Assembly: GCF_009905375.1 (NCBI RefSeq)
Contig: NC_133650.1
Span: forward strand, 303,649,203 to 303,713,202
Length of the DNA stretch: 64,000 nt
Direction of reading: 5' to 3'
Source: Apium graveolens
Lineage: Eukaryota; Streptophyta; Magnoliopsida; Apiales; Apiaceae
This document shows positions 1,789 through 44,757 of this stretch, piece by piece; the first letter of the stretch is position 1; the number at the start of each line of letters is the position of its first letter. Position numbers and translations under genes: made by a program. The notes under the pieces were generated by a model that was not told the origin of the DNA, searched no databases, and saw nothing but the letters and a program-made list of their open reading frames with translations.

Positions 1789-2112
1789 TTGCCTCCGACG
1801 ACGTTATTCTTAGAAGACACAATCAGGATTGAAATGTTGGAAGAAGAAGAGCCCCCAAATGACATAATCCAAGCAAATTTCAACAGGGAACGGCTCGAAG
1901 GAAGATTTGATGTCTTACAGTGTCTTGGACAAGATATGTATAAGGTAGATGCCCCTCTCCATGAGGGCGCGCCCTTATCCTCAAGAAATCCAAAGGAAGT
2001 GGATGCCCCTATGACACAGGGCGCGCCTTCTGGGCAGAAGAAGTTGATGCTCCTCTCCAAGAGGATGCGCCTTCTATGCAAAATGATGAGGATCATAATC
2101 AGCTCGACTTAG
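1789..2112 (+). other. Protease-RT linker of Tat element with three VDAP...GAP repeats
   Basis: This linker encodes an acidic segment and then three diverged units of the form VDAP(L/M)-x-x-(G/D)AP, about 54 bases apart. Two of the three units contain perfect GGCGCGCC (1966-1973 and 2020-2027), and the third has a decayed copy near 2064. The motif is read as Gly-Ala-Pro here. The frame differs from the following RT frame, so an indel lies near 2080. Confidence 0.6.
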
Positions 2113-3542
2113 ATCCATGGATACCAATGCCAACGGAAAAGATAGGGCCAGTGGAAGACACGATTGAAACCCATGTCGATAAAAAGGATCCAAGCAAAGT
2201 CTTGAGAATTGGATCTCAGTTGGCTCCGAGATTGAAAGAAGGGCTTTCAATATTTCTCTTGGCAAACCTTGATGTATTTGCGTGGAGCCATTCAGATATG
2301 GTGGGAATTGACCCAAAGGTCATGTGCCATCGATTGAACATTGATTCCAAACGCAAAGGGGTCCGACAAAAGCGCAGGGTCGTAAGTGGGGAAAGGGCTG
2401 TTGCCTTGACAGAAGAAGTAGATAGACTCTTAGATGTCGGACTAATCAAAGAATCTTTTTACCCAGATTGGTTGACAAATCCGGTGTTAGTGAAAAAACC
2501 TATCGGCAAGTGGGGAACATGTGTGGACTTCACCGATCTAAACAAAGCGTATCCAAAGGATAGCTTCCCTTTGCCAAGAATTGACCAGTTGGTCAATGCT
2601 ACGGCAGGACATGCCCTGCTGAGCTTCATGGACGCATACTCTAGCTATAACCAAATCCCCATGTATGGTCCTAACCAAGAACACACTTCTTTCATTACTG
2701 ATAGGGGGCTCCATTGCTATATTGGGACGCCGTTTTGTTTAATTAACGTTGGGGCAACTTATCAAAGGTTGGTAAACAAAATGTTCAAGGGACAAATCAG
2801 AAAGACAATGGAGGTGTACGTGGATGATATGCTTGTGAAATCTAAAAGAGCGGAGGATCATATAGCGGACTTGGCTGAGATGTTCCACATTTTGAGAAAA
2901 TATAGAATGAAGATGAATTCCCAGAAGTGTATATTTGGTGTGGGATCAGGGAAATTCTTGGGGTTCATGGTTAACCACCAAGAAATCAAAGCCAATCCTG
3001 CAAAGATCAAGGCCCTGCTGGACATGAAATCTCCCACCAACATTAAGCAAGTGCAGAGTTTAACCGGAAGGATTGCGGCGCTAAATCGATTTGTATCAAA
3101 GTCCTCAGATATATGCAAAGAATTCTTTAAAGCAATTAAAGGAATGGGAAAAGACTTCGTGTGGACCTCGGAATGTGAGGAGTCCTTTCAAAAAATCAAA
3201 GAACAATTGGGAAACCCTCCCATGTTGGCCAAGCCAGAGGATGGAGAGACATTGATCATTTATTTGGCAGTCTCAGAGTATTCGATCAGCGCGACATTGG
3301 TAAAAGAAGCAGAAGGTTGACAGTCGCTGATATACTATGTCAGTAAGAGGTTATTGGATGCAGAGACTAGATATACCAGCATGGAGAAATTAGTGTACGC
3401 CCTTATCCTTGCGGCACGGAAGTTAAGGCCATATTTCCAAGCTCACCGAATAGAGGTCCGCACTGCTTATCCTCTCCGGCATATTCTACATAAATCAGAA
3501 TCATCAGGAAGAATGCTAAAATGGGCGATAGAGTTGGGATAA
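2076..3542 (+). pseudogene. pol: Tat element reverse transcriptase and RNase H
   Basis: A 414-codon open stretch contains a full gypsy-type reverse transcriptase: LIKESFYPDWLTNPVLVKK, CVDFTDLNKAYPKDSFPLP, the FMDAYSSYNQI palm segment and the catalytic YVDDM box, then the thumb (KFLGFMVN, SLTGRIAALNRF). It ends at a TGA (3318-3320) inside the first RNase H; the same frame continues (YYVSKRLLDAETRYTSMEKL) to a TAA at 3540-3542, then resumes. RT copies the element RNA into DNA in the particle and RNase H removes the template. Two in-frame stops disable this copy, but the domain itself is nearly complete. Confidence 0.92.
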
Positions 3543-3548
3543 TTTGAT

Positions 3549-4235
3549 TTGGAATATTGCCCTCGTAAAGCAATCAAGGGACAAGCGTTGGCTGATTTCA
3601 TACTTGAGTTTGACTCTGAAGTTGACGATAAGGCTATAGTGTTGGCAGAACCTTCCTCACAAGAGAATCCTCCTAATAACATGAGAGAAGAGTTCCCGCA
3701 CCCTTGGTGGATCTTGCATGTCGATGGGGCCGTAAACAATAATGGAGCAGGAGCCGTGATTATTTTGATCACCCCGGAAGGGCATCGTCTGATGAGTGCC
3801 ATTCACTTCAAGTTTTACGTCACTAACAACGATGTTGAGTATGAAGCATTAATCAATGGTTTGAAGATAGCTCTGAAAGTGTGGGTTGTGAACTTGATCG
3901 CTCGAAGTGACTCAGAGTTAGTAGTGAACCAAGTCAACGGAGGTTTCCAGGCCCGAGGACCTCGGACAGAGCTATATATGAGATGTGTGCAGCGTCTACT
4001 GGAAAGGTTTGGAAGTGTTAGGCTAAAAGGTGTACCGAGGGAAGAAAATAGCAATGCAGATGCTTTGGCAAAGATGGGGTCGCAAATGGACAGCGTTCAA
4101 CTTGGGCAAATCCCTTTGGGGATCCAAGAAATCCCGAGTATTCCAGAGGTAGGGGTGTTCCAGACACAGGAGATCCCACATGAAAATTGGATGACTCCCA
4201 TTCATGACTATATTCGAATGGGAACTTTGCCATAA
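3549..4235 (+). pseudogene. Second (archaeal-type) RNase H of Tat pol
   Basis: It lies in the same frame as RT and follows it directly. The core is WWILHVDGAVNNNGAGA, then VEYEALINGL, RSDSELVVNQVNG and ENSNADALAKMGS, which supply the D-E-D-D acidic set of an RNase HI fold. Plant Tat-lineage elements carry this extra RNase H after the original one, so it is a good lineage marker. The frame ends with TAA at 4233-4235 ahead of integrase. Confidence 0.85.
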
Positions 4236-4295
4236 GACAAGTTACAGGCTCGATGCCTTCGCTACCAGGCTGCGAAGTACGTTGAATATGATGGA

Positions 4296-5418
4296 GTGTT
4301 GTATAAGAGGGGGTTTAACCAACCACTGTTACATTGTGTAGATCTAGAAGAATGGAATTATATTCTTAGGAAGGTACACGAAGGTATTTGTGGCAATCAC
4401 TCGCGGGGTGGTTCGTTGGCGATGAAAGTCCTCAGACAAGGATATTACTGGTCAACCATAAAAGAAGATGTCTTCAAGTTTGTTAGGGCATGTGATCGCT
4501 GCCAACGATTCGCTAATTATTCCAATGCCCCGTCGGCATCTATCACTTCGCTGGCAAGTCCTTGGCCTTTTACCATGTGGGGGATTGATCTCATTGGGGA
4601 ATTTCTCAAGGCCAAAGGGGTTGTGAAGTTTGTTGTGGTGGCTGTTGATTATTTCACAAAATGGGCGGAAACTATGCCACTGGCCACGATCACGGCAAAG
4701 AAAATCAAAGACTTTGTCTTCAACTCCATAGTCTGCAGGTTCAGTATCCCATATAAACTCATATCAGATAATGGAAAACAGTTTGATAGTAAAGAGCTAA
4801 AGAAGCTTTGTGAAGAATTGAACATCAAGAAAGATTTTGCTGCGGTTTACCACACACAAAGCAATGGTCAGATAGAAGCCATAAATAAGATTATCAAACA
4901 CACTTTAAAGGCTAAGCTGGAAGAAAAGAAAGGAGATTGAGGAGATGCCCATGGTCCTTTGGTCTTACAACACAACTCCTAGATCGACCACGGGAGAGTC
5001 CCCTTTTTTGCTAACTTACGGATATGAGGCTATGGTCCCCGTAGAGGTAGGAGATGGATCTCTACGAAGGAATTTGTTTGTTGAGGAAGATGCGAAAGTT
5101 AACCAAAGGCTCCACCTAGATTTTCTGGACGAAGCCAGAATGAACTCTCAGTTGAAGCTTGCTGCATATCAGCAGAGAATTGTAAGGTATTTTAATAAGA
5201 AGGTGAAGTCTGTGCCTTACAAGGTGGGAGATCTTGTGTTGCGAAAAGTCATGCCGAATAATATAATAGCTCAATATGGGGTGCTTGGAGTTAACTGGGA
5301 AGGACCATACAAGGTCAAAGCTATATTTTGGAAGGGAACCTATCGTTTAGAGGATTTGGATGACAAGCTTATTCCCCGGGCTTGGAATGCAGAGCACTTG
5401 CGGAAGTACAATCAGTAG
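4296..5418 (+). pseudogene. Tat element integrase, frameshifted before C-terminal domain
   Basis: The first part (4296-4940) has the zinc-binding HHCC domain (HEGICGNHSRGG...CDRCQRF) and the DDE core: Asp in WGIDLIGEF, Asp in LISDNGKQF, Glu in SNGQIEAINK. A TGA at 4938-4940 and a one-base shift separate it from 4945-5418, which encodes the end of the core (WSYNTTPRSTTGESPF) and the GPYKV/LR..V C-terminal domain, finishing at HLRKYNQ. Integrase inserts the cDNA in the nucleus. Broken but clearly recognisable; this completes the PR-RT-RH-aRH-INT order of gypsy elements. Confidence 0.9.
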
Positions 5419-6205
5419 GGTGTGGTTTCAGCACCCTCGTTCTTATAACTGATTTTTATGTAATAGACTAGTAGCAAATAAATTCCTCCTAGTCTAGGGG
5501 GATAGTATACATGGTTACGAACCTTGGAATTAGCTGAAGGATAAAATTTTCAAATAATTTCCCCACAGAGCATAGTAGTCATGGGACTGGTGTAATTTGT
5601 ACACTAGAGCGCATTATCAGTAAAAGAAAAAAGTTGCTTCAAATTGCTTTATATGCTTGGTTTATATAAGAGAAAGTTAGGGCGCGCCCTCAGTAAAGAG
5701 CCCCTTAATGATAAAGGAAAAGTTATTTGTAATACACAAACAAAAGATATCCATGACATCTAAGGAATATGTACTAAGAAACAATTTTCTCTAAATCAGA
5801 AATTGTAAGGCCTCATATCTAAGAATATCTGATTTGGAAGAATATTATGTTCTATGTCCACCCATGGTTAAAATATCAAGGCGCGCCTTTATTGTAAGAC
5901 GCGCCTCAAACTTCCGTATACTTATCAAATCTTGTCAAAGCAAAAATAGAAGTGTATGATTGTCTAGAAAAAACTAAGACAAAACCCTGTATAAAATAAG
6001 GCGCTCCCTAATGATAGAGGCGCCTTGACAAATTTTATATGCATACTGAAAGAAACAAAGTTAAATGAAACCTTACGATAGTCATAATGCAAATTAAAGA
6101 GTAGCAAAACATACAGTCATACAAATTTGCACAACATCAAAAGAGGGCTGGAACCTCAATGTATATAAAAAACCAGGATTAAAAGGACAAGACTAAACAA
6201 GAAGA
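5419..6205 (+). other. Tat post-integrase spacer, non-coding
   Basis: I see no gene here. It holds perfect GGCGCGCC at 5681-5688 and 5880-5887 and decayed forms (GACGCGCC near 5899, GGCGCTCC and GGCGCC near 5999-6025). It separates the sense integrase from the 3' end of the antisense gene. Confidence 0.6.
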
Positions 6206-8961
6206 TTAGGGCGCGCCCTCGGCATTCTCAGTTGGGGGAATCGACTGAAGAGGAATTGTAGGGTCGACTTCAAGCGCGTCCTTAGAAGCCTCATCAGTGG
6301 GTGCGCCTTCAGCTTCTTCCTCCTCCAACCCAAGCTCTACCCTTTTTGCTTTGATCTCTGTAGCATACTCCTTTTTGAACTCCACCATCTCAGCCACCAT
6401 CTCTTCCCCAAACTTCTCAAATGTATAATCAGGATCGTTAGCCACAAAACCAATCCTGTAGAAGTGGAAACCATTGGAAAAAGTCTCATCAGTGACATCC
6501 ATCTTCTCCTCAGGCCACCCATTCTTTTGCTGCACTTCAAGGTACTCAATCCTCATGTTGGATCCTCCCAGCTCAGTGTGAAGAGAGGTAGCCTTCTTAT
6601 TGGCAATCTCAAGTTGGGAGGTCAGATTAGCCACCTCATCTTTGAGGAAGGAAATTTCAGAGTCCTTGGATTTGATATCCTTGGCATGAAGAAAATCTTT
6701 GTCCTTCAAAGTGTTCTGCAAAATGTTGTTGTCACCTTGCAGCCTTTCCAGGCGCGCCTTTTCTCCCAAAAGTTTATCCACTACTTGATTAGAGTGGATA
6801 AATAGCTGGCAAGAAGCCTTGATAGAAGCCTTGGTAGCATCCTCTAAACTCGTACCTTGCCACTGTTCCACTTCCTCGTCTGTCACATGGAGAGAACCCA
6901 ATGGGCCTGGACAGGGCAGTAGAGGATCCGGAAGGCGCGCCATCAGCCCTTGGTCTCTTAGACGTGCCCTGTTTTTTAGTCAGATCAATGATTGGCCTCT
7001 TTAGAACCGGGACAGGTTGAGGAACAGGGATTGGAGTGAGAGTAGGTATTTGAGTCATGGTAGCATCTTTCTTTGGCTTTGCCTTGGGTTTTTCGCCAGT
7101 ACGAGATCCAAATGATTTAGGGATCTTGGGAGGAGCCATTTCTGCACAAAAAAACATATGGAAAGACATCAGGAATAAAAAGTTGAGGCGAGCCTGAAAG
7201 CAGGGCGCGCCCTGAATTTTTAAATATAACAGGATAAATATGTCATTAAGCACATGAATGCAAGAATGTATGACATAAGTAAGGAATGATAAGAAAATAG
7301 CGTGTACAGAACAGTATACTAAACAGGATAAGTAAACACTTAGATCACTATATAAAAGTGCATAAGATAAAGTCAATGTATAGAAGACGCGCCACAAGAA
7401 TTACAAGGCGCTCCCTCCTAAATGCTTGGGTTATCCAAACCTAGGGGAGGTTCTAGTGGGGCGGTACTGTCCTCATATTCATCTTCATCCCCTTCTTCGT
7501 CACTATCAATCTCCATGACGCGATTTATAGGGACGCCCTTCCTAAACTCCATATATTTGCATTTGGTTCCAACACGATCTGACATGATCCCAACCCTCAT
7601 TAAGTTGGACCTAGTGACTAATGTCTTCAAGTTCCATCTTTCTGCAACAATTTTAAGTATTGAATCAGCACACTCCTTGGGCGCGCCCTCAAGTTCGTAC
7701 ACAGAAGGTTTTTCTGTTATAATAAAAAGAAAGAATATGAGAATAGGTAAAAAAGACAAAAGGCAGCGAGGATAAAGGCGCGCCCTTACTTGGTTCCCTG
7801 TTAAATTGAATTCTGATCCTGGGCACATCATACAGATAAAAGAAATTCTCTTTCCACTCCTTTTTATGGCTGACTTTCCCTGAGGATAAGCCTTTCTTGT
7901 TGTGTTGTTTGTCCACAACTAAGTAATAATATCCATGATCAGATTTCCTAAGGCTGAAGAAATGACTCACCTCATTCATAGTGGGAGCTGGGAAACCCAT
8001 GTCCATATATAAGATGTATAGAGCCAGAACAAACTTATCGCTGTTAGGAGACAGTTGGAGTGGCGCCAAGTCATACATCTCGATCACATCCCTCAAAAAA
8101 TGATGGAGAGGCGCGCCCACTCACAGGGACACCAGCTTTGGGCTTGTAACCATCCTAGGAATCCTGAAATTTCTGCCATAATTAAAGAGATGGGGGCGCA
8201 TCATGCTTAGAGGGCGCACCCATATCCTCTCCATATCATAATATTCCATCAGCCATTCTAATTGCTCATCTGAAGAATTAGAGGAGAGCCCCACACAAAA
8301 TAACTTCCCTTGCTCTTTTCTGAAATGTTTCTTCACAGCCTCTATGCAGACCTCATACTTGCTCCAGTCGAAGTCCAGCTCACTATCAGAAACCTCATAA
8401 TGCTCAAATGGAATGGGGGAAGGCTCAGGGGAATTAGAGACCTGTAAGGTGTCTTCATCAAAGAAATTCGATTCTTCCTTAAGCTCAGGAGACATATCAT
8501 CAGACGCGCCATCTGGAGTAGGAGGAGTGGGCGCGCCCTGATGTTGTTGTAGGGAAATGCTTGGAGAAATAGCCCTGTAGGAAACCTTAAATGGTCCTTC
8601 CCCAACGTTTACTCCAATTTCGATGCCCATGTATCTATCTGCATTCAAGGACTCCAACCAATCATCATCGTCGAATTCTGTCTCGATAGGAGCAGGAGAG
8701 TCTCATTTTGGACTAGTTTTTGTTTGCCACATCTACGAGATAGAGGGATGTGGTCCATAGATGAACTGTTAGAGGAATCGGCCATCAAGTTGCCTTCTTT
8801 GGAATCTTTGACAAGGCGCGCCGCCCGGTTTAAAAACTCAGGAGTATGGTGGGCATTCAGAGGTTGAGGTTTAAAGTAAGTGTTAGGAGGAGAGTAGATT
8901 CCAAGGTTCGAAATCAATTCCTTGAAGGGGTGGAAAAGCGAAGAAGCGCCCTCGTCTTTCA
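6206..8961 (-). pseudogene. Antisense extra gene of Tat element (putative gypsy-type transposon protein), spliced, broken
   Basis: Inferred three coding exons on the minus strand: 8961/8785 to 7790, 7713-7441 and 7141-6206. Both introns have GT/AG ends, pyrimidine-rich acceptors and matching phase 1, which supports the model. A start at 8785 (MADSSNSSS) fits. Residues encoded at 8120-7800 (LRDVIEMYDLAPLQLSPNS...) match the Pfam family for putative gypsy-type transposon proteins (PF04195, Transposase_28). The last exon begins with a basic Pro/Lys region and encodes a coiled coil (about 6780-6540) and an acidic tail. Frame errors lie near 8698 and 6930, and a TGA at 8121-8123. Its function is unknown; antisense ORFs at this place are known in Grande-like elements. 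Many GGCGCGCC copies fall in it. Confidence 0.7.
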
Positions 8962-9691
8962 GCTGCCAAAAGAAAAAGCAAACATCATTGAGGGCGTGTC
9001 TAGTTAAAAAAAAAGAAGAAAAGAAGAAGAAAAGAGAAGGATAATAGAAGGCAAGTGTTGGAAAGGTAGCATGCCCCATTATAAGGAGGGTAAACAAGCA
9101 TTTATCAATTTATCAGACGTGCCCTACACTAAGAAGGCGCGCCCCATGAGAATTATATTTATTACAGCACAGGAAAAATTATTTAAAAGGAAAGGCACAC
9201 CCTATAAAGGAATAAGGCGCGTCTAAATCTGATATCTTTGCTGATGGATAAAAGAAAGGGCTCACTTTAAGTTGTTGGCAAACCTAAAATGGGTACAGTG
9301 ATATACGCATTCTGATCCCAAATTAGGCATAAAAAATAATAACAGTTGAAATTCTTAAAATCATGAATTTGAATTTCAGAACCCAAACATTTTAGATTAA
9401 AGCCACTAAAATTTGAATACATATGATATATACATACAAAAATATACATATTCAAGAATAGAAGATGAACAGTTTATATGTCATGCATGATGATTTAATT
9501 GATGAAATTCAGAAATATAAAAAGCTTTATGTACCTTTTTGATCGGAGAAGAAGATTGACCGAAAAAATTGAAGAAATGGTGGAGAATAAGGCCGGTTCT
9601 GAACAAATATGTCTCCCGTCGGTGTGGTGTTTTTGAGAGAAAAGTAAAGTAAGAGAGGGGTAATGAAGTAAAAGGGTAAAAAGTAATTACT

Positions 9692-9701
9692 TGTATTTAT
9701 A
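9692..9701 (-). promoter_or_regulatory. Probable TATA box of the antisense gene
   Basis: The minus strand reads CTATAAATAC, followed by a pyrimidine-rich stretch rich in CTCTCTTACTTT, as in many plant start regions. It lies about 0.9 kb upstream of the proposed ATG at 8785 and points toward the antisense gene. Inferred only from sequence. Confidence 0.45.
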
Positions 9702-9988
9702 GGTAAAAATGACAGTTGTCGGTCCCATCAATCATGTCCATCACGTCTATCACGATTCCCGAAATAAAAGGGACCATTTTAAAAACCGTTCGAATTACAA
9801 GAATACGTTTTCAAGAAGGCGCGCCCTGTCCGGCTGCAGCAATTTGAAATTTTGAATAAAAAAAATTGGAAATTCAAAGGGGGCGCCATGTTGAAGGCGC
9901 GCCTTGTAAAAAAGTATTGATAAATAAGTTTATATAAATTTTGATAAAGATAAGTAAAAATTCCAATCCCATTTCCAATGACATATGG

Positions 9989-10002
9989 AATTTGGGGGTA
10001 GT
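9989..10002 (+). promoter_or_regulatory. Polypurine tract of Tat element
   Basis: The run AATTTGGGGGTAGT lies directly before the LTR start TGTTATGCC at 10003. This is the expected second-strand primer position. Confidence 0.75.
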
Positions 10003-10520
10003 TGTTATGCCTGAAATTTGGTATAAACCCTACTTTGGGTCAAAGTCAAATAATGTGGCTAAAATAAAGATATGAATGCCTAGAATTAAGGAGAGAACGA
10101 GGCAAGTTTCCTTCCTAAAAAGGGAAGAGGCGCGCCCTTTGAATTAAGGAAGGGCGCGTCATGTGTTTTTGAAGGATTATTGCTTTGATGCACTTCGTAA
10201 ACATCGAAGGTGCACCCTCATGAGAAGAGGGAGGTGCGCCCTGTTGATTAAGAAGGAGGTTTTAGTTAATACCTTCGATTTGATTCCTTACCGGTGGAAA
10301 ATGCCCAGGGCGCGTCCTAAAGTAGTAAAGATGATTTGATGAGATATTAGTTTGGCTGAGTTTTCAAGAGGATTCAAGGAAGACAGAGATGATTATTACT
10401 AACGTATTTGTTGCAGGTACTGTATTGAAGAACTTTTTCCTATAGTACATCTACAGGAAGACGGTGTCCGTGGTCAGAGACCTCCAGGGGTATGCCTGGA
10501 CGGAAGGCCTCCTCCTGTAG

Positions 10521-10610
10521 TCTATGAGTGTCCTCATTGGGGATGTGGGGTAAATTCTGGTGTGTGCTTTGGGAGATTTGTCTCTGTAGTCAACGAGTGT
10601 CCTCGTTGGG
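10521..10610 (+). other. Pair of covarying hairpins in Tat LTR
   Basis: A direct repeat of about 25 bases contains two small hairpins with the same TGTC loop: ATGAG-TGTC-CTCAT (10524-10537) and CAACGAG-TGTC-CTCGTTG (10591-10608). The stems differ but both stay paired. Confidence 0.55.
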
Positions 10611-10975
10611 AGACTTCGGAGTATCCTGCACTTTGCACCCAAAAGTTTGGGATCACTTGTCCTGTAATCTGGTAGGGGCTCCTTACCGGGGGACAAGGAT
10701 GCGTCCAACATTTGGGGTGAACCACGGCTATACCTGCGTCCACGGACTAGAGAAACCGCTGGTAGCGGATGGTTATCCTTGGCCAGGGAGATGCCTTATC
10801 TGTGAAGTCTCGAAGCCGCGGACGAGCCTTGGGCCTTTGTGGTTGGGCTCCATCGGTGGACATTCCTAAAGCTAGTAGAAGACAGTTTCCAGTGGGTTTT
10901 CCACTAGACCTCGGAACAAGAGGTATAGGCCCATTAGGTTTCTTATTCTCCAAGAACTACGTTGGCTTGATTCCG

Positions 10976-10984
10976 TATAAATAG
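10976..10984 (+). promoter_or_regulatory. TATA box of Tat LTR
   Basis: TATAAATAG followed by GGATAC, about 95 bases before the copia-B insertion. It is the best core promoter in the LTR and would place the transcript start near 11010. Confidence 0.65.
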
Positions 10985-11072
10985 GGATACATAGGCAAAT
11001 TTTAATGGGTCAGAAGCGAGAGCATAAAGGAGCCACCACTAACCCTAAGCAATCTCAGCCACCAATAACCAC

Positions 11073-12022
11073 TGTTGTGCATATGTTGTGTACTTGATGA
11101 TTTCATAAACAAAACATCTGAGTAGATTTTACTTAGTGAAATAATGTAGCACTCGACGGATAAGAATTATAGTCCCGACGGATAACTCATTATAGTCCCG
11201 ATGGATGTTAATTTATTATCCATCGAGTGAGTAGCTTATGTAATAATAAGTCTGTAGCACAGTTCTGTATACATCTTTGTATAGATTCTGTAGTAGCCTA
11301 TAAGTCATGTTGACTTTAACTAGATATGCAGAATAGGTTGATTAATTGTATATAAATGATGTCTTGTAATTCTGCATAAGTGAAATGAAGTCAAGTGCCA
11401 AAATAGCTACCGACGGATGATTAACAAAGCCATCGACGGATGATCAAATGACTATCAACGGATGTTTAATATAGCAAGAGACGGATGATCAACTAAGCCA
11501 ACAACGGATGTTCAGAAAGTCGACGGATGATCATATATCGAACGGATATTCATAAAGTCCAACGGATGATCATATAAAGAATTCAAACAGCAGTTGAACA
11601 GTAAAAACTGAGCACAGCCGTCGAGATGTATACAAATCTACTGTGGAAGCCCATTAACTGGGTAAAAGAGGACGAAAAGCAGCAAAGCTTAAGACTGATA
11701 GTTTTTATATTTTTTAGTCTTTTTGACTTTGAAATCTTGGTAATATATAAACCAAGAACGTAGCAAATAAAATGATATAGCTGAGATACGAAAAACAGAG
11801 AAATCTTTGAAAGCAGAATCTTTAGCATTTCCCTATATTCTCAGTAGTTCGATTTGTAAGCAGCTATGAGCATTCTTGCACACAGAGTCTTCTCGATATA
11901 TAATATATATCTCTGGTGGAATTGTTTAAATCCACCAGAAAGTTTTTAAAGACTCTTGTTTTTAATTACTTATGTTTTGATTCAATTAAGTTTCTATTCC
12001 GCATTGTGCTAATCAAAACACT
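11073..12022 (+). repeat. Copia-B 5' LTR, first part
   Basis: Interrupted by copia-A after 12022; it continues at 25119-25221, giving 1053 bases against 1054 in the 3' LTR. A TATATAAA box at 11744-11751 is shared with copia-A. A hairpin of CTGGTGGA (11913-11920) with TCCACCAG (11931-11938) lies downstream of it. Confidence 0.9.
11153..11568 (+). repeat. Copia-B U3 array of CGACGGAT-type motifs
   Basis: A first group at 11153-11226 includes TCGACGGAT, two CCGAYGGAT copies and an inverted ATCCATCGA. A second group at 11410-11568 has eight copies about 20 bases apart (consensus NNNACGGATG). The array ends about 175 bases upstream of the TATA box. The 3' LTR repeats it at 43783-44200. Confidence 0.88.
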
Positions 12023-12097
12023 TGTTAGGAATATATGTGCATTTGTTTGATGATATGTTTAACAAGACACTTAAGTAGAAATCTAGTGTTTGTAGCC

Positions 12098-12479
12098 TCA
12101 ACGGATAAGACCACTTTGGCTATCCGTTGATGGTGTAGCTTTACTTAGAAATAAGTCTAGTGTTGTAGCACATTTCAGTCTCTGAATTTGAGATTTAATT
12201 CTTAAATGTTGAGGGAAATTATAAGTCATGTTGACTACTAAAGGATATGCAGATAGGAAGGCCAATTGTAAATATTTCATGCCTTGTAATTTTGTATAAA
12301 TGAAATGGTGTCAACGGATAACTTAAAGACCTTCAACGGATGAGAAACAAAGCTTCAACGGATGTCTCTAAAGCTTCAACGAATAACATCCTTCAACGGA
12401 TGAGTGCATCAACGGATAGAGCTTCAACTGCTAACACATCAACGGATAAAGCCATCAACGGATGAAGGCTTCAACGGAT
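12098..12479 (+). repeat. Copia-A U3 array of TCAACGGAT
   Basis: Perfect copies start at 12098, 12311, 12333, 12355, 12393, 12409, 12439, 12455 and 12471, with an inverted copy ATCCGTTGA at 12122 and two decayed copies at 12376 and 12424. From 12311 on the spacing is 22, 22, 21, 17, 16, 15, 15, 16 and 16 bases. The array lies 240-410 bases upstream of the TATA box. The 3' LTR has the same array at 24132-24513. Confidence 0.93.
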
Positions 12480-13021
12480 GTTCTGTTAAATAGCAGTTGA
12501 CAAGTGGTAGTTGTACCTACAAACAGAGGCACATGGGTTGACAGAGACAACTGAGATGTGGTAGCCTATTTCAGGAACATCAGAAAAAGCAGCCGTTCTA
12601 CTCTAGTATAAAGAGGCAATAGTCAACAATGCACTGGAGTAAAATGGAGAAGAAACAAGTGGAGAACTTATTTTATTATTGTACTTTTTATCTTTGTCTT
12701 CACTTGTAAACTTAGTGTTATATAAACCAAGTAGCAGCTAGTAATTAGAATAGAATTTTTCCAGAGCTGTTTAGAAAAATCTTGAGAAAAATTATCTAGT
12801 TTGTACTAGGATGCAGCTGTGATCAACTTCTTGAATCACAGATTTTCTGAAATACCATCTCTGGTGGAACAACAAATCCACCAGAAAAGTTTTTAAGGTC
12901 TGTTGTGTTCTGTACTTTTGTGCTTGAATATATATCTGTCTGTATTAGCTTAAAGCAATTCACACACTTGTTTATCTTAAACACACAGCCTTTGAAACTG
13001 CTCAAAACTTGAAAAAGTTTT

Positions 13022-13055
13022 GAGATTTACATTCAACCCCCCTTCTGTAAATCTC
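13022..13055 (+). other. U5 hairpin with conserved C-rich loop (copia-A)
   Basis: Arms GAGATTTACA and TGTAAATCTC are perfectly complementary around the 14-base loop TTCAACCCCCCTTC. The same loop with different but still complementary arms occurs in copia-B (25164-25199) and in copia-C on the minus strand (28048-28077). Confidence 0.75.
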
Positions 13056-13081
13056 ATTGTTAGTTCAATAGGAATAACAAT

Positions 13082-13093: not shown

Positions 13094-13140
13094 AGGCTCT
13101 TGACATACAAAGAGTTTAAAGTTCTTGGAAACTAACAAAG

Positions 13141-31811: not shown

Positions 31812-31818
31812 AAATGGA

Positions 31819-34047: not shown

Positions 34048-34129
34048 TATGAATTTTTGAATGAATAAAAATTCAAGGAGTTGAAAAATCACAAAAGTCT
34101 AGGATCTTGATTTGTTCGTTAATTAGAAG

Positions 34130-34141
34130 GCTCTGATACCA
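34130..34141 (-). promoter_or_regulatory. Copia-C primer binding site
   Basis: The minus strand reads TGGTATCAGAGC next to the LTR at 34144-35514, which fixes the element orientation. Confidence 0.9.
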
Positions 34142-34143
34142 AT

Positions 34144-35514
34144 TGTTAGGTCCCAATGCGTTTGTAGAAGGGGGGGTTGAATACAAACGGTACCGAATAA
34201 TCGAATTAAATGCGGAATAAAAATATGAAACAAAATTCAAGTTAAATAAGAATATTATTAAACTTGAAAGGTGTTACAACAACTGTATCGATTACAAGGA
34301 ATTAATCTCAAATTAATTATCACAAATTTAGAATAAATTCGACATGAACTTTTTCTATTTTTGCAATAATTAGAATCAAATGCTAAACGCGATTTGAGAT
34401 TAAGTTCTAGGGATTTTGATCCGCTAGATTGTTATACAAGAACAAGATAAAGATTTCTAGTTTATTAGATTTAACTTTACAATCTAGAAATTGATCTTGA
34501 AGTTTTGCAGAGAAGATGAAATATTGTTCTGCTTCTTTTTCTTTTGTTCTCGGGTTCTGTATTGTTGATTGAATAATAATTGAATGAACTGCTTCTGCTT
34601 CTTTTAATCAATCAACCGAATAGAATTGAACTGACAAGACAATCCTGAGCTCAGCAAGACAATCGGTAGGACTATCCTTAGAACTAGCAAGACAATCAGA
34701 ATGAACTAGCAAGACTTTCGGTATGACAATAAATTGTCATACCGATTGTCATAGTAGTTCAAACAGATTGTTTTTGCTGAAAATAAATAGATTTAAATTC
34801 TATAAAAATTCTGGTAAGACAATCCTTTTGAATTAGCATGACTTTCGGTATGACTAATGATTGTCATACCGATTGTCATACTAATACAATCAGTTGTCTT
34901 GTTGAATTAAAACAGATTTTTAAACCAATTTAAATTCTGAAAATTCTTAATATTAATTCAGAATTAATTAATCAATTAATTTAATTAATCAAATAAATTA
35001 ATCTTTTGCAGATATAATTTATTTTCTTAATTAAATTATATGACTTAATTAATTAATAGAGAATTAATACTAATCTTGAGCAGCATCTATTCTTCTGTAT
35101 ATCTTCTGAAAATCACTGAAATATATGAATCAATTCCACCACTTCAATGTTGACATTCGATGTACTGTCTAGTTCATGAGTGACTAACTTCCGTGACGTT
35201 TCTTCATGTCTTGACTTTGACACTTTGATTTTCTTCAGATTAAATCCTTGTAATTAATGATACTCTGACGAGATCTCTGTCACTTGATTAAATCCACGAT
35301 CTTGATTTATATCACTGAGGCTTGATCAATTTCTTGAACTTCTTCTAGTGAATTAACTCCTCAAGTCTGTAGATGAACCTTGTTTCTGAATCCTCTGACA
35401 GATGTTACTTTGCGAGATCTCTCTGACGGTAGATCCACTATTTACTTATTACATTCTTATTTGAGTTGAGTTGAATCCTCGAATATACAAATAGGCTATG
35501 ACATATGACTTACA
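34144..35514 (-). repeat. Copia-C LTR (5' LTR on its own strand)
   Basis: Near-identical to 28033-29402, with the same GACAATC cluster and palindromes at 34640-34900. Confidence 0.92.
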
Positions 35515-35519
35515 AAATG

Positions 35520-38500
35520 TGTACCTAGCTGATTTCAACTCAACTAAAGCAGAATCTATAACTTGTCTTCTCAATAAAGCAAGTCAGGATGAAAGTTGGC
35601 TATGGCACAAGAAGCTATCTCATTTAAACTTCAAGACCATGAATGAGCTGATAAAGAAAGAATTGGTAAGAGGTATTACTCTAGTGGAGTTTTCAAAGGA
35701 TGGACTCTGTGATGCCTGCCAAAAAGCGAAGCAGATCAAAGCATCATTCAGGAAGAAACTTGATTCAACAATTGAAGAGCCTTTACAACTGCTTCACATG
35801 GATTTGTTTGGACCAGTCAATGTATTGTCCATCTCAAGGAAAATATTTTGCCTAGTAATTGTAGATGATTTCTCAAAGTTCTCTTGGACATATTTTCTAA
35901 AGTCTAAAGATGAGGCTAGTAAAATCATCATCAATCATATAAGGCAAGTCAACAATCATCCTGATTTCAAAGTTAGAAGAATCAGGAGTGACAATGGAAC
36001 TGAATTCAAGAATTCTGTCATGAGAGCATTTTGTGAAGAAAATGGGATACTGCGTGAGTTTTCAGCAGCAAGGACTCCACAACAGAATGGAATAGTAGAA
36101 AAGAAGAACAGATCACTTATTGAAGCTGCAAGGACAATGCTTGAAGAATCTAAACTACCAACATATTTCTGGGCCGCAGCTGTAAATATTGCATGCTACA
36201 CTCAGAACATTTCTCTGATTAATCAAGCAAGATGCATGACTCCCTATCAATTGTTCAAAAACAAGAAACCAACTCTAAACTTTCTTCATGTCTTTGGCTG
36301 CAAATGCTATATCCTGAGAAATCAAACTGATCAAAATGGGAAGTTTGATGCTAAAGCAGATGAAGGAATTTTTGTTGGATATGCTATTGGTAAAGCATAT
36401 AGAGTCTACAATCTAAGAACCAACATTGTTGTGGAATCTATACATGTTGTGTTTGATGATAAAAAGATTGAAGGACTAAAAGATGGAGATTACCATGAGA
36501 GCCTCAAATTCGACAATGTGGAGATGGTTAGTGATGACAGTGATGATGAGAGTGATCAAGAAATAGTGTCTAAAGATAATGCACACAAATCTACCACCAA
36601 TGAAGCACAAAACTCAACATTCGTCGAGCTGCATAATGCTTCATCCGTCGGAAGGCAATCTGTGTTATCCGTCGAAAGACAACCTGCCTCATCCATCGGT
36701 ACTCAAAATTTACCATCCATTGGGTTATCAAAAGAAGCAGGAGGTCAAGACAGATCACCTATAGAAAATTCTCCTTTCTCAAATCAAAGATCCACAAACT
36801 CAGGGGAAGTTTCTAGCAATCAAAACTCAATTACACTTCAAGACAATCATGAGGTATCTTCATCTAGAGCTAATCTACCTCAACAAAGGAAATGGACAAA
36901 AGATTACCCCTTTGAGCTTATCATTGGTGATGTTTCTTCTAGAGTTCAAACAAGAAGAGCAACTCAGGAAGAATGTCTATACAACAGCTTTCTGTCAAAG
37001 GAAGAACCAAAAAAGGTAGAAGAAGCTTTGTTGGATCCTGATTGAATTTTAGCTATACAGGAGGAGCTAAACCAATTTGAAAAGAATAATGTATGGAAGC
37101 TGGTACCCAAGCCTAAAGGAAAGAATCCAATAGACACCAAGTGGGTATTCAGAAACAAGATGGATGAAAATGGCATAATAATCAGGAATAAAGCTAGATT
37201 GGTTGCTAAGGGTTATTGTCAGCAAGAAGGAATAGGTTTTGATGAAACTTTTGCTCATGTTGCAAGACTTGATGCCATCATAATCTTCTTAGCCTATGTT
37301 GCTCATGCCAATTTCAAAGTCTATCAAATGGATATCAAAAGTGCCTTTCTAAATGGAGATTTGGAGGAAGAAGTGTATGTTAGTCAACCTCCTAGTTTTG
37401 AAGATCCAAATTTTCCAGAATATGTCTATTATCTTCTGAAAGCACTTTATGGACTGAAGCAAGCACCTAGAGCCCGGTATGACACTTTATCAAAGTTCCT
37501 TTTGGAAAATCATTTCACAAGAGGTACTATAGATAAAACTTTATTTTTCAGAAATGTTAATGGCTCTAGTATACTTGTTCAAATTTATGTAGATGATATT
37601 ATTTTTGGCTCTACAGATGAGAAACTTTGCAAAAAGTTTGCCAAATTGATGGAAAGTAAGTATGAAATGAGCATGATGGGAGAACTAACTTACTTTCTTG
37701 GTTTGCAAGTTAAGTAAGTTAGTGATGGAATATTCATTAGTCAAACTAAATATATTTTTGATCTTTTAAAAAAGTTTGATCTAATGAATTGTACATCTGC
37801 AAAAACTCTCATGGCCACTGCAACTAAGCTTGAACTAAACACTACTGAAAAGTCTGTAGATATTTCAAGTTATAGAGGCATGGTTGACTCACTTCTGTAC
37901 TTAACAGCTAGTAGACCAGATATAATGTTTGCTACATGTTTATGTGCTAGATTTCAGGATGATCCTAGAGAATCTCACTTGATAGCTATTAAGAGAATTT
38001 TCAGATATCTCAAGGGAACACCAAAACTTGGCATTTGGTACCCTAGAGATTCTGGTTTTAATCTAACTGGTTATTCAGATGCAGATTATGCAGGTTGTAG
38101 AATTGATAGAAAGAGCACAACAGGAACCTGTCAATTTCTAGGAAACAAACTTGTGTCCTGGTTCAGTAAAAAGCAAAATTCAGTTTCTACTTCTATAGCT
38201 GAAGCTAAATATATTGCTGATGGTAGTTGCTGTGCTCATATTTTATGGATGAAGAATCAATTGCTAGACTATGGTTTGCAAGTTGAAAGGATTCCTATTT
38301 TTTGTGATAACACAAGTGCAATTGCCATCACTGAAAATCCAGTGCAACATTCAAGGACAAAGCACATAGACATCAAGTACCATTTCATAAGGGAACATGT
38401 GATGAATGGTACTGTGGAATTACATTTTGTTCCAAGTGAGAAGCAACTTGCAGATATCTTTACCAAGCCACTGGATGAATCCACCTTTTCAAGGTTGGTA

Positions 38501-38530
38501 AGTGAGTTAGGTATGCTTAATTACTCTTAA
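35520..38530 (+). pseudogene. pol: Copia-B pol, second part (integrase, RT, RNase H)
   Basis: One frame throughout, with two nonsense changes relative to copia-A: TGG to TGA at 37043-37045 and CAA to TAA at 37715-37717. It holds the zinc region (CDACQKAKQIKA), the integrase core (LLHMDLFGP, IRSDNGTEF, NGIVEKKNRS), a linker with ATCCGTCGA/ATCCGTCGG copies (36643-36699), RT with YVDDI, and RNase H. In RNase H the conserved AEAEY is AEAKY, which removes a catalytic acid. It ends ELGMLNYS as in copia-A. All these changes are C-to-T or G-to-A, as expected from decay of methylated DNA. Confidence 0.93.
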
Positions 38531-39054
38531 ATTTATCTGAGTTATTTTGCAAGTTGTAATGAAGCCAGAAATTTAGTTAATCTTTTAATCTTGGATGAAA
38601 TTTTGGCTAAGTCAAAATTTGCATCTCGACGGATAACCCTTATCCGTCGAGTTTAGTCATCCGTCGATATACTACTTGCTAATAAAAGTCAATTATTTTT
38701 CTGGAATACTTTATGTCTCGACGGATATCAGTTTATCCTCATCCGTCGAATTGTCTAAATCTCAGCCATTAATTCCCTGAACATTATCCATCGAGTATAC
38801 TTACAGTTTGTAAGCATTACACGACGGATAATGGGTGGAATTTTTACAGATTTATTTTAAAACGGCTATTTTAGGCAATTTCTATTGGTTAATTTACTTT
38901 ACTTTATTAATTTTTTTTCCAGTTATTTTTGAGATAGTATAAAAGCTTATTTCATAGCAATTGTTTTCTTTTATCATTCTCAAATTCAACTGCTTTTATT
39001 TCATTCTCTCTCAAGCAAATATTCTCCTTCTCTTCAAGCTTTCATTCTCTAACA
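38531..39054 (+). repeat. Copia-B pol-ORF3 spacer with motif hairpins
   Basis: TCGACGGAT occurs at 38626 and 38718, and ATCCGTCGA at 38642, 38659 and 38741, with variants to 38830. Positions 38626-38636 and 38640-38650 form an 11-bp stem with a 3-base loop. It corresponds to the copia-A spacer 18888-19445. Confidence 0.88.
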
Positions 39055-42000
39055 ATGGCTCCTGTAGTAAAGATTATGCCTCAAACTGGGTTCATTTATG
39101 AGAAGAATAACTTCACTACTTTGGTCAATAAGGGTTTTCAGCAATCAGAGGACTATCACAAGATAATAGACTTTGTGAAGAATTACAAGCTAAATTATGC
39201 CATGCTGGAGTCACCCACAATAGTGATGTAATAAAAGCATGTTTCAAAATTCCTGATAATAATGTGACTTCATCACACAATGACACTGATATTATCAATA
39301 TGCTTAATTCCATTCACTATGCACTTTCCACTTCTAAAATGAGTGATATTAGGAGAATGGCTCTTAGGAAGGAATGGAGTTTCATGTGTGATGTAGTTAC
39401 TAAGGTCTTCTCTGGAAAAATCAGTAATTTTGATTCAGTGAATATTTCCATGCTTAACATGCTATACATGGTAGTTACAGATAAATTTTACAACTTCAGT
39501 GACCTTATCATGTTTGAGTTAGGATACAAATTAGGAGAGCTAAATAAAAGAGGGAAGAATGTTTATTATGCCAGATTTTTTATGTTATTGGCTAACCACC
39601 TCTGTGAAGAAATAGTTCTTGAGAACCCTAACAACAAACTGGATTGTTGGGTTCAAAAGAGGAGGATCATTGCAGATCTGAACAGGGCCAACCATCACAG
39701 GGATGTGCCAATGTTCTACTTTCCTGTAATGCAGGCACCTCAGGTAAGTGAGGTAAGTTCATCCATCCCAACAACTATTCCAACCTCCACTATTTCTTTG
39801 ACTTCAGAAGTAGCTATGACAACTGTGCCAATGACCAAACAGTTGCCTACCAAAGCCTCCAAACCCTCTACAATTTCCAAATCTAAATCAGAGAAAACCC
39901 CCTCTAGTATCTCTCAAAAGATACCAGTTGTAAAATCCACAAAAGCAAAAGAGGGGAGTGTGAAGGAGGGAAAGTCAGGTGAGGGAAGGGGTGAACATCA
40001 AAGAAACCCCAAGAATAAGGATGGAGAGTTGAGTGAATCCCAGCCTAGCCACACTGCAATTTCCCAACAAACTGCAGTGCTTAAAAAGGATAAAAGCTCA
40101 CTTCTAGCTACATCCTCCCAAAAGGATGCAATTATTGAACAAAGCTCTCAGCCAAGAGCACATGCCAAAAGGGTTAGGGACACAAGCTCACCCCAAACTT
40201 ATACAAGAAAGAAGAAATCTAAGACCTTTGGGGATGCACAGGGCACACACACAGTGCAAACTGGTGCTAAAGACACAGTCCCTGCACTCTCTCAAATTCA
40301 GTTTGATGTGGCTCCAATAAATGTGGAGTCACAGCCAAAATCTCTAACAATAGAAGCATCAGAAACACCATACTCACCAACAAACCCTCTGGAAGTGGAT
40401 ATGATAAACACTTCAATTCCTGATTCCCCTTCTTTAACTCTGTCGGGGAAGCCAAAATCTAGTGCAAGTGAGTATCATCTTTTAGATAATTTGTTGGCTC
40501 ACTTGCCAATTCTTTCAGATTCTATTGTGACATCTGTGCCCCAAATATCTTCAATCAACACAGAGTCAACAATAGTTTCTCTTCCCACCTCATTCATTTT
40601 TACTCTCTCGATGGATATTGCTCATCCGTCGACTAGTGATTGTATCCCGACGGATAAACCTAACAGCAGTTATCCGTCGGATAGCCTTACCACTCATTCG
40701 ACGGATATCACTAATCCGTCGAGTATCTCTGCACAACTTCAAACTTCAATTGTTTCAAGTGCAGAAGATTTAGTGGTTGTACAGTTACTCTTAGGACTGA
40801 GAGAGGAGAGTGTATTGAGTGAGAGGTTGGGTTGCTCCCAGGCAAAAGGAGAGGAAAAGAGTGAAAATCAGCAATCCATTTATTCAGGATTGGCAAAAGT
40901 GAGTGAGAGGAGTCCCACCTTAGTAGGTGAAGGTGAGGGTGTGAGGGTGGGGAGCCAGGGTGAGACCCTGATGCAACAAAAGAGAGATTATGAGAGAAAA
41001 GCAGGTACCGAAGCTATAAGGGTGGATCCAGCCATTGCTAGTGAGTCAATGATTGTGGATGATGCTGAAAAGGAAAGACAATTTCAGCAACATTATAAAG
41101 CTGTAATTGATAACATTTCCTTGGATGCTGACACTTTTACTCACCCTGTGTTAGCCTATCAACTGTTGGCTGCTCAGGGCAATGTGGAGGCAGAACAGAC
41201 TTTGAACTTAGTACACACTTCAGAATCTCTTCAGAGAGATAAAGCTGCCGTCAATAGGATGCCTTCTCAAGCTGGTGAGTCATCTGAAGAATTTGAAGTA
41301 AATTCTAATGATGATGACTCTGTTTCTTTGGATGGAAGCATGAACTTAGGGGGAGATGAAGGCCCAAGTTTTGTTCCAAATTTACCTGAATGGGCATGGA
41401 CAAAGGAATCTACACCAGGACAATTTGGTGTATCTTTGGTTAAGCAGTTTCTGGCAATTCAAAAGCCCTTCAGGAAACTTCAGATGCTGGTACCAAGGCT
41501 ATTCTTCAAGCTCACATAGACTCTCTACATCTCATGAAGATACAACAATTAAGACAGAATCTGAGTGTGGATGAACTCAAGAAGGATATAGCTGACTTGA
41601 AGACCTACAATTCTGAGAAGCTGGATTCAGTCATGCCATATGGTACCATGCAGGAATCATTACTGAGACTGAAGAGCGAATCAGATTCTGAAAAGAAGCT
41701 GGCCAAGCTGGAAGATAGAGTTCAAGTTATTGAGAATTCAGTGGCCACCCTTCTTCAAAATCAACAGTCTCAGACAAATCTTCTCATGCAACTGGCTAAT
41801 GCACAAGGCCTAACTCCTCAACCTGGTGATAACAAAAAGGGGGAGAGAGAATCAAGTAAAGGGGAGAAAGGACCAAGTGAGGGGGAGAAACTTCAAGTTC
41901 AAATCAGCAAAGTAATTGTACCTTCAATTACTGTCTCCAAGCCACCAGTTGTAGATGGTATAGATCTTATTAAAGCAGCAGCAATAAATTTGAAAGTTGT

Positions 42001-43516
42001 TGAGAAAGTAAAGTTGAGTTTGATCAACTGGGATAAGATTGATGAAGAGATACAGAAAAAGTTTGAACTTGTCAAGGAGCCAGTTAAGTCAGTCATCCAT
42101 CACTCTCAAGTCAAGCAAATCAGTGTGAATCAGATAAGCATGAATTATCTGGAAAGAGGACAATCTTCCTGCATCAAGTCTACAAAGGCTGAAATAATTC
42201 TTAAACCAAGGGCAAACTATCCAAAATCATCATTGAAGAACCCCTTGGACACTGTGTATGAGACACCCAAGCCTGATGAGAAGAAGCTTCTGTCAAGATC
42301 AATTGTCTTCTAAAGATCCAGCTGATTCAGCTTCAAAAAGAAGAATTGCTAAGATATTCAGAAATGGAAAGGAAATTTGTGTGGTAGCTGGACATCCACA
42401 ATTTGCTCAAGCAAAGAGAGAAGAAAAAGCCAGATTAAAGCAGGAAAAGAAGCAAGCTGCTCTAGATGTAAAGAAGACTAAACAAAAGAAAGAGCAGATT
42501 GCTATCTTGGCCAAACTACAGGCTGTGAATTCATCTCAAAAATCCCATATCAACCATCTGAAGCTGCTGAATCAAAGAAGAAAATTGAAGAACAGAAGAA
42601 ATCTCCAAGAAAGAAAGAATTGGCTAGAAGAACAAAAAGGAAACTGGATATTGTTGACAAAGGATTGGAAGATCAATTTCCTAAGGTACCCACACCAGTT
42701 ACAACTCAAGCATCAAAGCCCTCTGTGGTATTTGAAGATATAAGGGTGGTGGATCCCTACAGGAATATTCATGGTGAACCTATTGTGCCCAAGGATGAGC
42801 CAATAGAGTGGGATAAAATACCAATTCCTGACTTCAGTTTACCAATCCTTAGCAAGCCAAAAAGAACAAAGTCAGGGGCAGTCAAGAAAGTGAAGCTGTC
42901 ACCTCTCAAATCCAAATCAGTAGTTAAAGTTCAACCCAAAATTGACAGGGGAGACTACTTGTACTTGTGTGACATCAAAGAATTTTCTGATCTAAACCTA
43001 TATCTGGATGAACTAGATGAAGTGAGGGGAATTGATGCATACAGAAACCTACCTGAAAGGTTAGTGTTCAAGTAGAAAGGAGGAAAGGAGATTGTGTGGC
43101 CACTTCACAGGATTCTTCAAGAAAGCCAAGCTGTACTGATTAAAGTGTATTCATCCTTCAAGAAAAACTTTGGGTTCAATGTAACTGCAAGAAGACTAGT
43201 ATTGAAGAAGATTGAAGAACTAAGGAGTATTAGAGCTAAAGATGCACTCCCAAAGACTCTAATCATCCCATACACAGGGAGAAGAGTGCATCTAAGGCCC
43301 TACTGGCTGATGGAGTTCATAGATGACAAATGTGTGAGAAGATTCTTCAGGTTAGAAGACCAGTTGAGTATCTCTAGCAATGAGACTCTCTTGGAAATTC
43401 AAGAAAAGCTAGATCTCTCAGAATCTGATGAACTGGAATTCCACAGGCAGCTCCAAAATCAGATTGATGAAAATAACAGGAAGCTTGGAAGAAGATCCAG
43501 ACCTTCAAGAAACTAG
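39055..43516 (+). pseudogene. Copia-B third ORF (env-like position), broken
   Basis: Starts ATGGCTCCTGTAGTA like copia-A. Relative to copia-A, about 0.1 kb is deleted near 39215, further frame changes lie near 41450-41520, 42300 and 42600, and an in-frame TAG is at 43073-43075. Open segments are 39264-41519, 41534-42313, 42258-42743, 42620-43075 and 43094-43516. The conserved N-terminal, coiled-coil and C-terminal (YLCDIKEFSDLNLYLDELDEV) parts are all recognisable. Motif copies at 40608-40721 lie in the Ser/Thr-rich linker, as in copia-A but with the CGACGGAT form. Confidence 0.85.
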
Positions 43517-43690
43517 AAAAATCTGCTCAGACTAGAGGAGCATCTTGAAATGACTGTGAGCCAAACTTTGTACATTTTGATTAATTGAAGCTCTTTCAGT
43601 ATTATCTGCTTATCTTTAAAGCTGTATGATTAGGATGTTTTGTTATCATCAAGTATCTCTTAATTTATGGCTACAATTCCAGTAGACATA

Positions 43691-43703
43691 AATTGGGGGA
43701 GAT
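43691..43703 (+). promoter_or_regulatory. Copia-B polypurine tract
   Basis: AATTGGGGGAGAT lies directly before the 3' LTR. Confidence 0.88.
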
Positions 43704-44757
43704 TGTTGTGCATATGTTGTGTACATGATGATTTCATAAACAAAATATCTAAGTAGATTTTACTTAGTGAAATAATGTAGCACTCGACGGATAAGAATTA
43801 TAGTCCCGACGGATAACTCATTATAGTCCCGACGGATGTTAACTTATTATCCATCGAGTGAGTAGCTTATGTAATAATAAGTCTGTAGCACAATTCTGTA
43901 TACATCTTTGTATAGATTCTGTAGTAGCCTATAAGTCATGTTGACTTTAACTAGATATGCAGAATAGGTTGATTAATTGTATATAAATGATGTCTTGTAA
44001 TATTGCATAAGTGAAATGAAGTCAAGTGCCAAAATAGCTACCGACTAATGATTAACAAAGCCATCGACGGATGATCAAATGACTATCAAAAGATGTTTAA
44101 TATAGTAGTCGACGGATGATCAACTAAGTCATCAACGGATGTTCAGAAAGTCGACGGATGATCATATATCCAACGGATATTCATAAAGTCCAACGGATGA
44201 TCATATAAAGAATTCAAACAACAGTTGAACAATGAAAACTGAGCACAACCGTCGAGATGTATACAAATCTACTATGGAAGCCTATTAACTGGGTAAAAGA
44301 GGACGAAAAGCAGCAAAGCTTAAGACTGATAGTTTTTATATGTATTTAGTCTTTTTGACTTTGTAATCTTGGTAATATATAAACCAAGAACGTATCAAAT
44401 AAAATGATATAGCTGAGATACGAAAAACAGAGAAATCTTTGAAAGCAGAATCTTTAGCATTTCCTTGTATTCTCAGTAGTTCGATTTGTAAGCAGCTGTG
44501 AGCATTCTTGCACACAGAGTCTTCTCGATATATAATATATATCTCTGGTGGAATTGTTTAAATCCACCAAAAAGTTTTGAAAGACTCTTGTTTTTAATTA
44601 CTTATATTTTGATTCAATTAAGTTTCTATTCCGCATTGTGTTAATTAAAACACTTATATCTATATTCGAGTTGAACATTTTTATTTCGAAAAAAAGGTTC
44701 AAGAATTCCATTCAGCCCCCCTTCTGTAATTCTTGTTATATTATTAAGGGACTAACA
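43704..44757 (+). repeat. Copia-B 3' LTR, intact
   Basis: 1054 bases, TGTTGTG...ACTAACA, with the motif array at 43783-44200. Followed by the ACCAC duplication and the rest of the Tat LTR. Confidence 0.93.

Follow-up and report, generated by a model that had tools for sequence, protein, structure and literature searches.

Family-specific repeated words in nested Apium graveolens Sireviruses as candidate binding sites of the element's own ENV-like protein

Sireviruses, which account for about 21% of the maize genome (PMC3599292), carry "repeated motif" (RM) boxes. These are family-specific words in high copy number with a CGG-CCG core, located in the long terminal repeats (LTRs) and upstream of the ENV-like gene (Bousios et al. 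2010, PMC2829016). In the accessible parts of that article the boxes lie upstream of the LTR promoter, their matches in PLACE are mainly stress-factor sites, and unnamed DNA-binding factors are suggested. There, extra copies at the start of ENV are given for Osr10 and HOPIE only, four ENV-lacking Sireviruses have boxes but none in the linker, and the role of the ENV-like protein is called unproven and controversial. Here we analysed a stretch of 64,000 nt from Apium graveolens (contig NC_133650.1; this whole stretch is called the window below), in which three Sireviruses and a Ty3 element are nested, each with a short repeated word. Our results suggest that the boxes of the Sireviruses are read as double-stranded DNA, tentatively by the ENV-like protein of the same element.

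A second related system is found in VANDAL transposons. VANDAL-encoded VANC proteins are sequence-specific anti-silencing factors, and their family-specific words of 8-9 bases lie in arrays and differ between relatives (Hosaka et al. 2017, PMC5735166; Sasaki et al. 2023, PMC10398659). Family-specific short words in arrays within the element were found here too. As far as the accessible text of these articles goes, VANDALs are DNA transposons with non-coding targets and DUF1985 proteins, whereas here the carriers are copia retrotransposons with boxes also in coding regions. Similarity to DUF1985 was not found here in sequence, and the system is known here from sequence and predicted structure. 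Finally, additional open reading frames (aORFs) adjoin pol in sunflower LTR elements, with Transposase_32 in an Athila aORF and a predicted nuclear location for some (PMC11728184). That study proposes a modulation of RNA silencing from likeness to double-stranded RNA-binding proteins, with VANDAL just as an example; its accessible part ties no DNA word to an ORF.

Repeated words and their places in the nested elements

The window contains the following elements:

1..11072, + strand: Tat-like Ty3 element, truncated by the window start, with RVT_1, RNase H and integrase domains
11073-44757, + strand: copia-B, inserted in the Tat-like element, target duplication ACCAC
11073..12022, + strand: copia-B 5' LTR, first part (remainder at 25119-25221)
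12023..25113, + strand: copia-A, a Sirevirus inside the copia-B 5' LTR, target duplication ACACT
25119..28027, + strand: copia-B, remaining 5' LTR, gag and gag-protease (PR) linker
28033..35514, - strand: copia-C, a Sirevirus inside the copia-B interior, target duplication AAATG
28033-29402 and 34144-35514, - strand: copia-C LTRs
35520..44757, + strand: copia-B, integrase to 3' LTR (3' LTR 43704-44757)

The divergence between the LTRs of an element (Kimura two-parameter) is 0.0105 for copia-A, 0.014 for copia-C and about 0.04 for copia-B, which is consistent with the nesting order. Judging by polypurine tract (PPT), AT/TG junction, RM boxes and Pfam copia domains, all three copia elements are Sireviruses. 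The terminal PPT AGGGGGAG is followed by the junction as AGGGGGAGAT/TG in copia-A and copia-C and as TGGGGGAGAT/TG, one base off, in copia-B. Several PPT copies, about four per element, are expected (PMC2829016, accessible part). GGGGGAG is present four times in the interior of copia-A, where three copies fall within the last 2.7 kb, and likewise four times in the copia-C interior and in the right part of the copia-B interior. Copia-C has gag but no pol open frame of at least 130 codons.

Word counts were compared with a Markov-2 expectation per region, i.e. one LTR plus interior for copia-A and copia-C, and one LTR plus the interior pieces for copia-B. The words named in the original prediction are present, and those of Tat, copia-A and copia-B occur far above chance. 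TCAACGGAT has 43 exact copies in the window, 41 of them in copia-A (31 observed versus 0.074 expected) and one in each copia-B LTR (11455 and 44132), where two had been claimed. All 18 exact copies of TCGACGGAT lie in copia-B (14 versus 0.005). When words were ranked by enrichment, GGCGCGCC came first for Tat, TCAACGGAT for copia-A and (T/C)CGACGGAT for copia-B, which also carries the form CCGACGGAT. In copia-A, 41 of 42 ACGGAT cores are preceded by TCA. Copia-B is less pure, with TCG or CCG at 26 of 36 cores and TCA at two.

The copia-C word is the weakest of the four. GACAATC occurs 21 times in the window, 15 times within the two copia-C LTRs and six times elsewhere, the latter being about the chance level (1.6 per 10 kb in the model). 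GGTATGACAAT occurs six times, always inside these LTRs, and the strongest 9-mer, CGGTATGAC, has four copies versus 0.008 expected. The copia-C word is located in the LTRs and not in the coding linkers.

The words cluster at the following places:

12098..12479, + strand: copia-A 5' LTR array, 10 TCAACGGAT (9 +, 1 -)
14769..14835, + strand: copia-A gag-PR coding linker, 4 copies, read as STD (+) and YPL/HPL (-)
17001..17100, + strand: copia-A coding linker between integrase and reverse transcriptase (IN-RT), 5 copies, SVD/SVE (-) and STD (+)
18974..19127, + strand: copia-A linker upstream of ENV, 7 copies, the published place of Sirevirus RM boxes
21096..21210, + strand: copia-A, within the ENV-like frame, 5 copies, STD and HPL/YPL
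24132..24513, + strand: copia-A 3' LTR array, 10 TCAACGGAT
11153-11576, + strand: copia-B 5' LTR array, (T/C)CGACGGAT and variants
26899-26974, + strand: copia-B cluster in the part with gag and the gag-PR linker
36643-36675, 38626-38829, 40624-40722 and 43784-44159, + strand: copia-B interior and 3' LTR clusters
28526..28765, no strand assigned: copia-C LTR array, 8 GACAATC with GGTATGACAAT palindromes
34638-34877, no strand assigned: second copia-C LTR array, 7 GACAATC

The words of copia-A, copia-B and copia-C are RM boxes and hence not new in themselves; for these three, it was wrong to claim that dispersed DNA words are unknown in LTR retrotransposons, since such boxes were described in 2010 (PMC2829016). 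As in the accessible account, a family-specific word in high copy number with a CGG core is found in the LTRs (arrays of ACGGAT cores in copia-A and copia-B) and upstream of ENV (38626-38829 in copia-B), next to the same PPT, AT/TG junction and ENV-like gene. The copia-C word has no CGG core and resembles the Tnd-1 box ACAATCGATTGT, an exception to this core in the same article. In contrast to what is reported there, coding parts (gag-PR, IN-RT and mid-ENV) also hold boxes here, and many copies are half-sites instead of palindromes. The new part consists of these coding clusters, a concerted base change between families and, in the ENV-like protein, a putative domain of the VANC21 type.

Copia-B clusters occupy places homologous to those of copia-A, and along the element body the clusters are spaced at 2-3 kb. 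In copia-A, 14 of the 21 exact interior copies lie within open frames, where five encode STD, five HPL or YPL and four SVD or SVE. Since one DNA word is translated in three phases, peptide repeats were ruled out as the selected unit. The nucleotide word is constant, the encoded peptide varies and both orientations occur; this points to double-stranded DNA as the thing being read, and not to protein or single-stranded RNA. The original prediction, an address label read by a family-specific DNA- or RNA-binding factor, is best kept in its DNA-binding version.

Possibly, the boxes do not serve as words for a protein but act as DNA or RNA hairpins, e.g. as a source of small interfering RNAs (siRNAs), in methylation, or in packaging or dimerisation. 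Compared with shuffles, the RNA of the copia-A gag-PR, pre-ENV and mid-ENV clusters folds strongly (z = -6.9, -5.9 and -6.7), and inverted pairs with a 7-base spacer, TCAACGGAT-N7-ATCCGTTGA, occur at 22,187 sites in the genome (all genome-wide counts cover 3.33 Gb), the reversed pattern at none. In a 2016 paper, LTR palindromes of maize Sireviruses were reportedly linked to siRNAs. However, folding clearly better than in shuffles was seen neither for the IN-RT cluster (z = -1.7) nor for a 150-base part of the LTR array (+1.7), because the copies in these two are mostly direct repeats; yet the exact word is kept there. Moreover, a hairpin needs complementary arms only and not the same nine letters everywhere. 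Thus the hairpin was rejected as a feature common to all clusters, a role that belongs to the word, and we consider a hairpin function quite improbable.

Divergence of the words between families

Other copies were sought with the primer-site pattern ACAATTGGTATCAGAGC, which occurs 35,066 times in the genome (17,661 + 17,405). The first 20 loci in genome order among 100 listed sites were classed by gag/RT likeness and word: one belonged to A, six to B, six to C and two to a family D, one was unclear (L015) and four had no word. In the LTR stretch, each of the 13 loci of A, B and C had between 2 and 12 copies of its own word. The 19 loci outside A contain no TCAACGGAT. Outside B (14 loci), (T/C)CGACGGAT occurred only in L010, in five copies at 7900-8201. 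Just downstream lies a second element whose gag is B-like (68% at 8989), and the five copies probably belong to its LTR. The C and D patterns were present as singles or doubles in a few other loci, at about chance frequency.

Family D (L005 and L019) is a further Sirevirus family with its own word, AGT(A/T)CTGAT. This word is located in the gag frame, in the IN-RT linker (three copies 15 bases apart) and downstream of RT, which in L019 means before an ENV-like match and in L005 a stretch with no ENV match. It is present in the LTR of L005 and absent from that of L019. The gag of D is 40-41% identical to that of A, and C and D together span 35-41%; their words differ entirely from the A word. 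The best matches of B gag are 55-71% identical to A, and the B word differs by one or two bases. The places are thus shared while the words differ more with gag distance; with four families we give no statistic.

Four C-type elements with no RT match (L009, L013, L016 and L017) retain the word of L020, a locus with IN, RT and an ENV-like match (28.6% over 147 residues). Like copia-C, these four carry the C word in the LTR and a second array about 6 kb on. The candidate word of L015, AATACTGAT, is uncertain, as this stretch overlaps L016. A local cluster of another kind was seen in L014 at 9615-9753 (element orientation), where six GCGTTACA in both orientations lie within 140 bases; these are perhaps subterminal repeats of another transposon.

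The relation between the A and B words was studied by aligning A (window and L007) with B copies across three coding linkers. The window copia-B and L024 covered all three, L006 two, and L018 and L021 just gag-PR; no use was made of L008, L023 or the pre-ENV linker. After three gapped cells had been set aside, 43 B cells remained opposite A words. Base 3 of the word is G in 37 of these and A in six. Most other bases are kept: bases 4 and 7 in 41 cells, bases 8 and 9 in 40, base 5 in 35, base 2 in 34 and base 6 in 32; base 1 is kept in 17, being mostly C instead. The fifth IN-RT site, at which B has no word, was scored among the misses. Outside the words, the flanks of A and B are 53% identical. 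In L007, TCA precedes all 26 ACGGAT cores.

The change from TCG to TCA has the direction of CpG decay, and mutation may have supplied it. The A copies all retain the second CpG of the word, so the uniform new state is not explained by decay alone.

Another possibility is that the word has no function and spreads by slippage, template switching or gene conversion, being homogenised within a family. Tandem periods of 16-24 bases in the LTR and IN-RT arrays are compatible with this, as are palindromes with mixed A/B arms and frequent differences of B copies at the word CpG (bases 5 and 6; C>T in six and G>A in eight of 43 cells). Yet copies kilobases apart differ in their flanks, in orientation (both occur) and in reading phase (three occur), and the word is shared where flanks are about 53% identical; conversion tracts would have taken flanks along. 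We think it improbable that the words are without function.

Palindromes of the TCGACGGAT form (B/B) occur 1,622 times in the genome, and those with mixed A/B arms 1,619 times. If the arms were independent, mixed palindromes would number about 4,400 and pure B ones about 230. The arms thus agree beyond chance, and the privacy of the A and B words is strong, not absolute. Strict privacy was rejected given the mixed palindromes beside 22,187 pure A and 1,622 pure B ones. The private words of the original prediction accordingly stand for copia-A and copia-B as largely private, with TCAACGGAT in the copia-B LTRs and the mixed palindromes as exceptions.

The ENV-like protein as a candidate reader

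Two features of copia-A are relevant here:

19266..23870, + strand: open frame for the ENV-like protein, 1534 codons, with the homologous start at ATG 19446
19446..20180, + strand: predicted folded domain at the ENV-like N terminus, similar to the DNA-bound domain of VANC21

The predicted N-terminal domain has its structural match in VANC21 with its target DNA, and this likeness recurs in the predicted structure of an ENV-like relative, P0024. A VANC21-like fold is thus supported by the models, albeit weakly. From ATG 19446 on, no 19-residue segment of the copia-A protein has a mean hydropathy above 1.26. In the transmembrane test, four of 13 ENV-like proteins have one segment with a mean above 1.6; that of copia-A has none.

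By sequence, no credible Pfam domain, DUF1985 or other, was detected in the copia-A protein. DUF1985 was not among the Pfam families shown for 28 ENV-like relatives, and Transposase_32 matched weakly in four of the 28; together with the position beside pol, this domain is shared with the sunflower aORFs (PMC11728184, accessible part). The ENV profile matched DUF1985 with an hhalign probability of 0.2%, both profiles being shallow, and a sequence search of solved structures gave no credible hit (best E 0.089 and 8.2). A DUF1985 protein of this genome (L031, the one protein tried) reaches VANC21 by sequence with E 1.4e-5.

Among 40 relatives listed, the named ones were from Apium, Heracleum or Daucus, and none of these came from outside Apiaceae; scoring covered the candidates with the largest number of shared words. 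Around the boxes in the middle of ENV, the relatives P0007 and P0010 read STD and HPL/YPL, the same as copia-A. The carrot (Daucus carota) protein P0011 has STD three times and HQL three times but never HPL. HQL beside STD is what TCAACTGAT encodes in its two orientations, and from the protein we predict TCAACTGAT to be the word of this carrot family.

These findings suggest the following mechanism. RM boxes would be the binding sites of the element's own ENV-like protein. This would be no envelope protein; it would act in the nucleus, bind DNA sequence-specifically and have a VANC-like domain at its N terminus. Wherever the word is present, in the LTR and at 2-3 kb intervals along the body, the protein would bind it and relieve silencing, for its own family alone; the words of the families and the domains that read them would diverge in step. 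The words, their conserved places, the base change across sites, the three reading phases and the family specificity in 20 loci are observed. The reading as an address label is derived from these, the two orientations and the putative VANC21-like domain in the same elements; binding of the own word and the anti-silencing effect we infer. We give the mechanism as a whole slightly less than an even chance. Among the papers listed in searches of an open-access library, none connected ENV-like proteins with VANC or with RM boxes.

Alternatively, the boxes could be cis sites for host transcription factors, with family differences reflecting different host factors and the ENV-like protein being unrelated. 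The published position upstream of the LTR promoter with mainly stress-factor matches (PMC2829016, accessible part) fits this, and the copia-A LTR array is the largest cluster here. However, clusters in gag-PR, IN-RT and mid-ENV recur every 2-3 kb, distant from the LTR promoter, and the A/B difference at base 3 is shared at most cluster places. The lack of linker boxes in the four published ENV-lacking Sireviruses ties the boxes to ENV and not to the host. We consider host factors unlikely as the explanation.

More broadly, and more tentatively than the mechanism itself, the Sirevirus "envelope" could be an anti-silencing DNA-binding protein of the VANC superfamily and the RM boxes its private landing sites, with word and reader coevolving in each family. 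LTR retrotransposons would then share the address-label system of VANDALs, non-autonomous relatives would keep the address and be freed in trans, and other plant elements with Transposase_28/32 ORFs, such as Tat with GGCGCGCC, may do likewise. If so, box function and the role of an "envelope" in walled cells would have one answer, and sequence-specific anti-silencing, so far a feature of a few DNA transposons, would also apply to an abundant class of retrotransposons in plants.

The Tat-like element and the right flank

The Ty3 element presumably belongs to the Tat lineage, a name taken over from the original prediction. Its features are:

1965-4940, + strand: pol with RVT_1, RNase H and integrase
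about 6206-9109, - strand: antisense accessory ORFs
7689-8120, - strand: PF04195 Transposase_28 (E 8.2e-6, 26.4 bits versus a cut-off of 26.2)
from about 10005: 3' LTR, probable start judged from the sequence

Thus an antisense ORF with a plant transposon domain is present 3' of a Ty3-type pol. All 17 exact copies of GGCGCGCC in the window lie at 1966-10136 within this element (17 versus 0.129 expected). With one mismatch allowed, there are 30 sites at 1966-10316 versus about one expected (Markov-1), and one in the remaining 52.9 kb. Nine of the 13 one-mismatch copies differ by C>T or G>A, three of these at CpG. The copies are spread over the coding region, the antisense ORF region and the LTR. 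A CpG-rich palindrome, GGCGCGCC is a genuine and strong word next to the antisense Transposase_28 ORF, known from this one copy of the element; that it follows the same address logic is a possibility.

In the right flank of the window, tandem repeats with periods of 107 and about 129-136 are present at 48533-48739 and 58951-59544.
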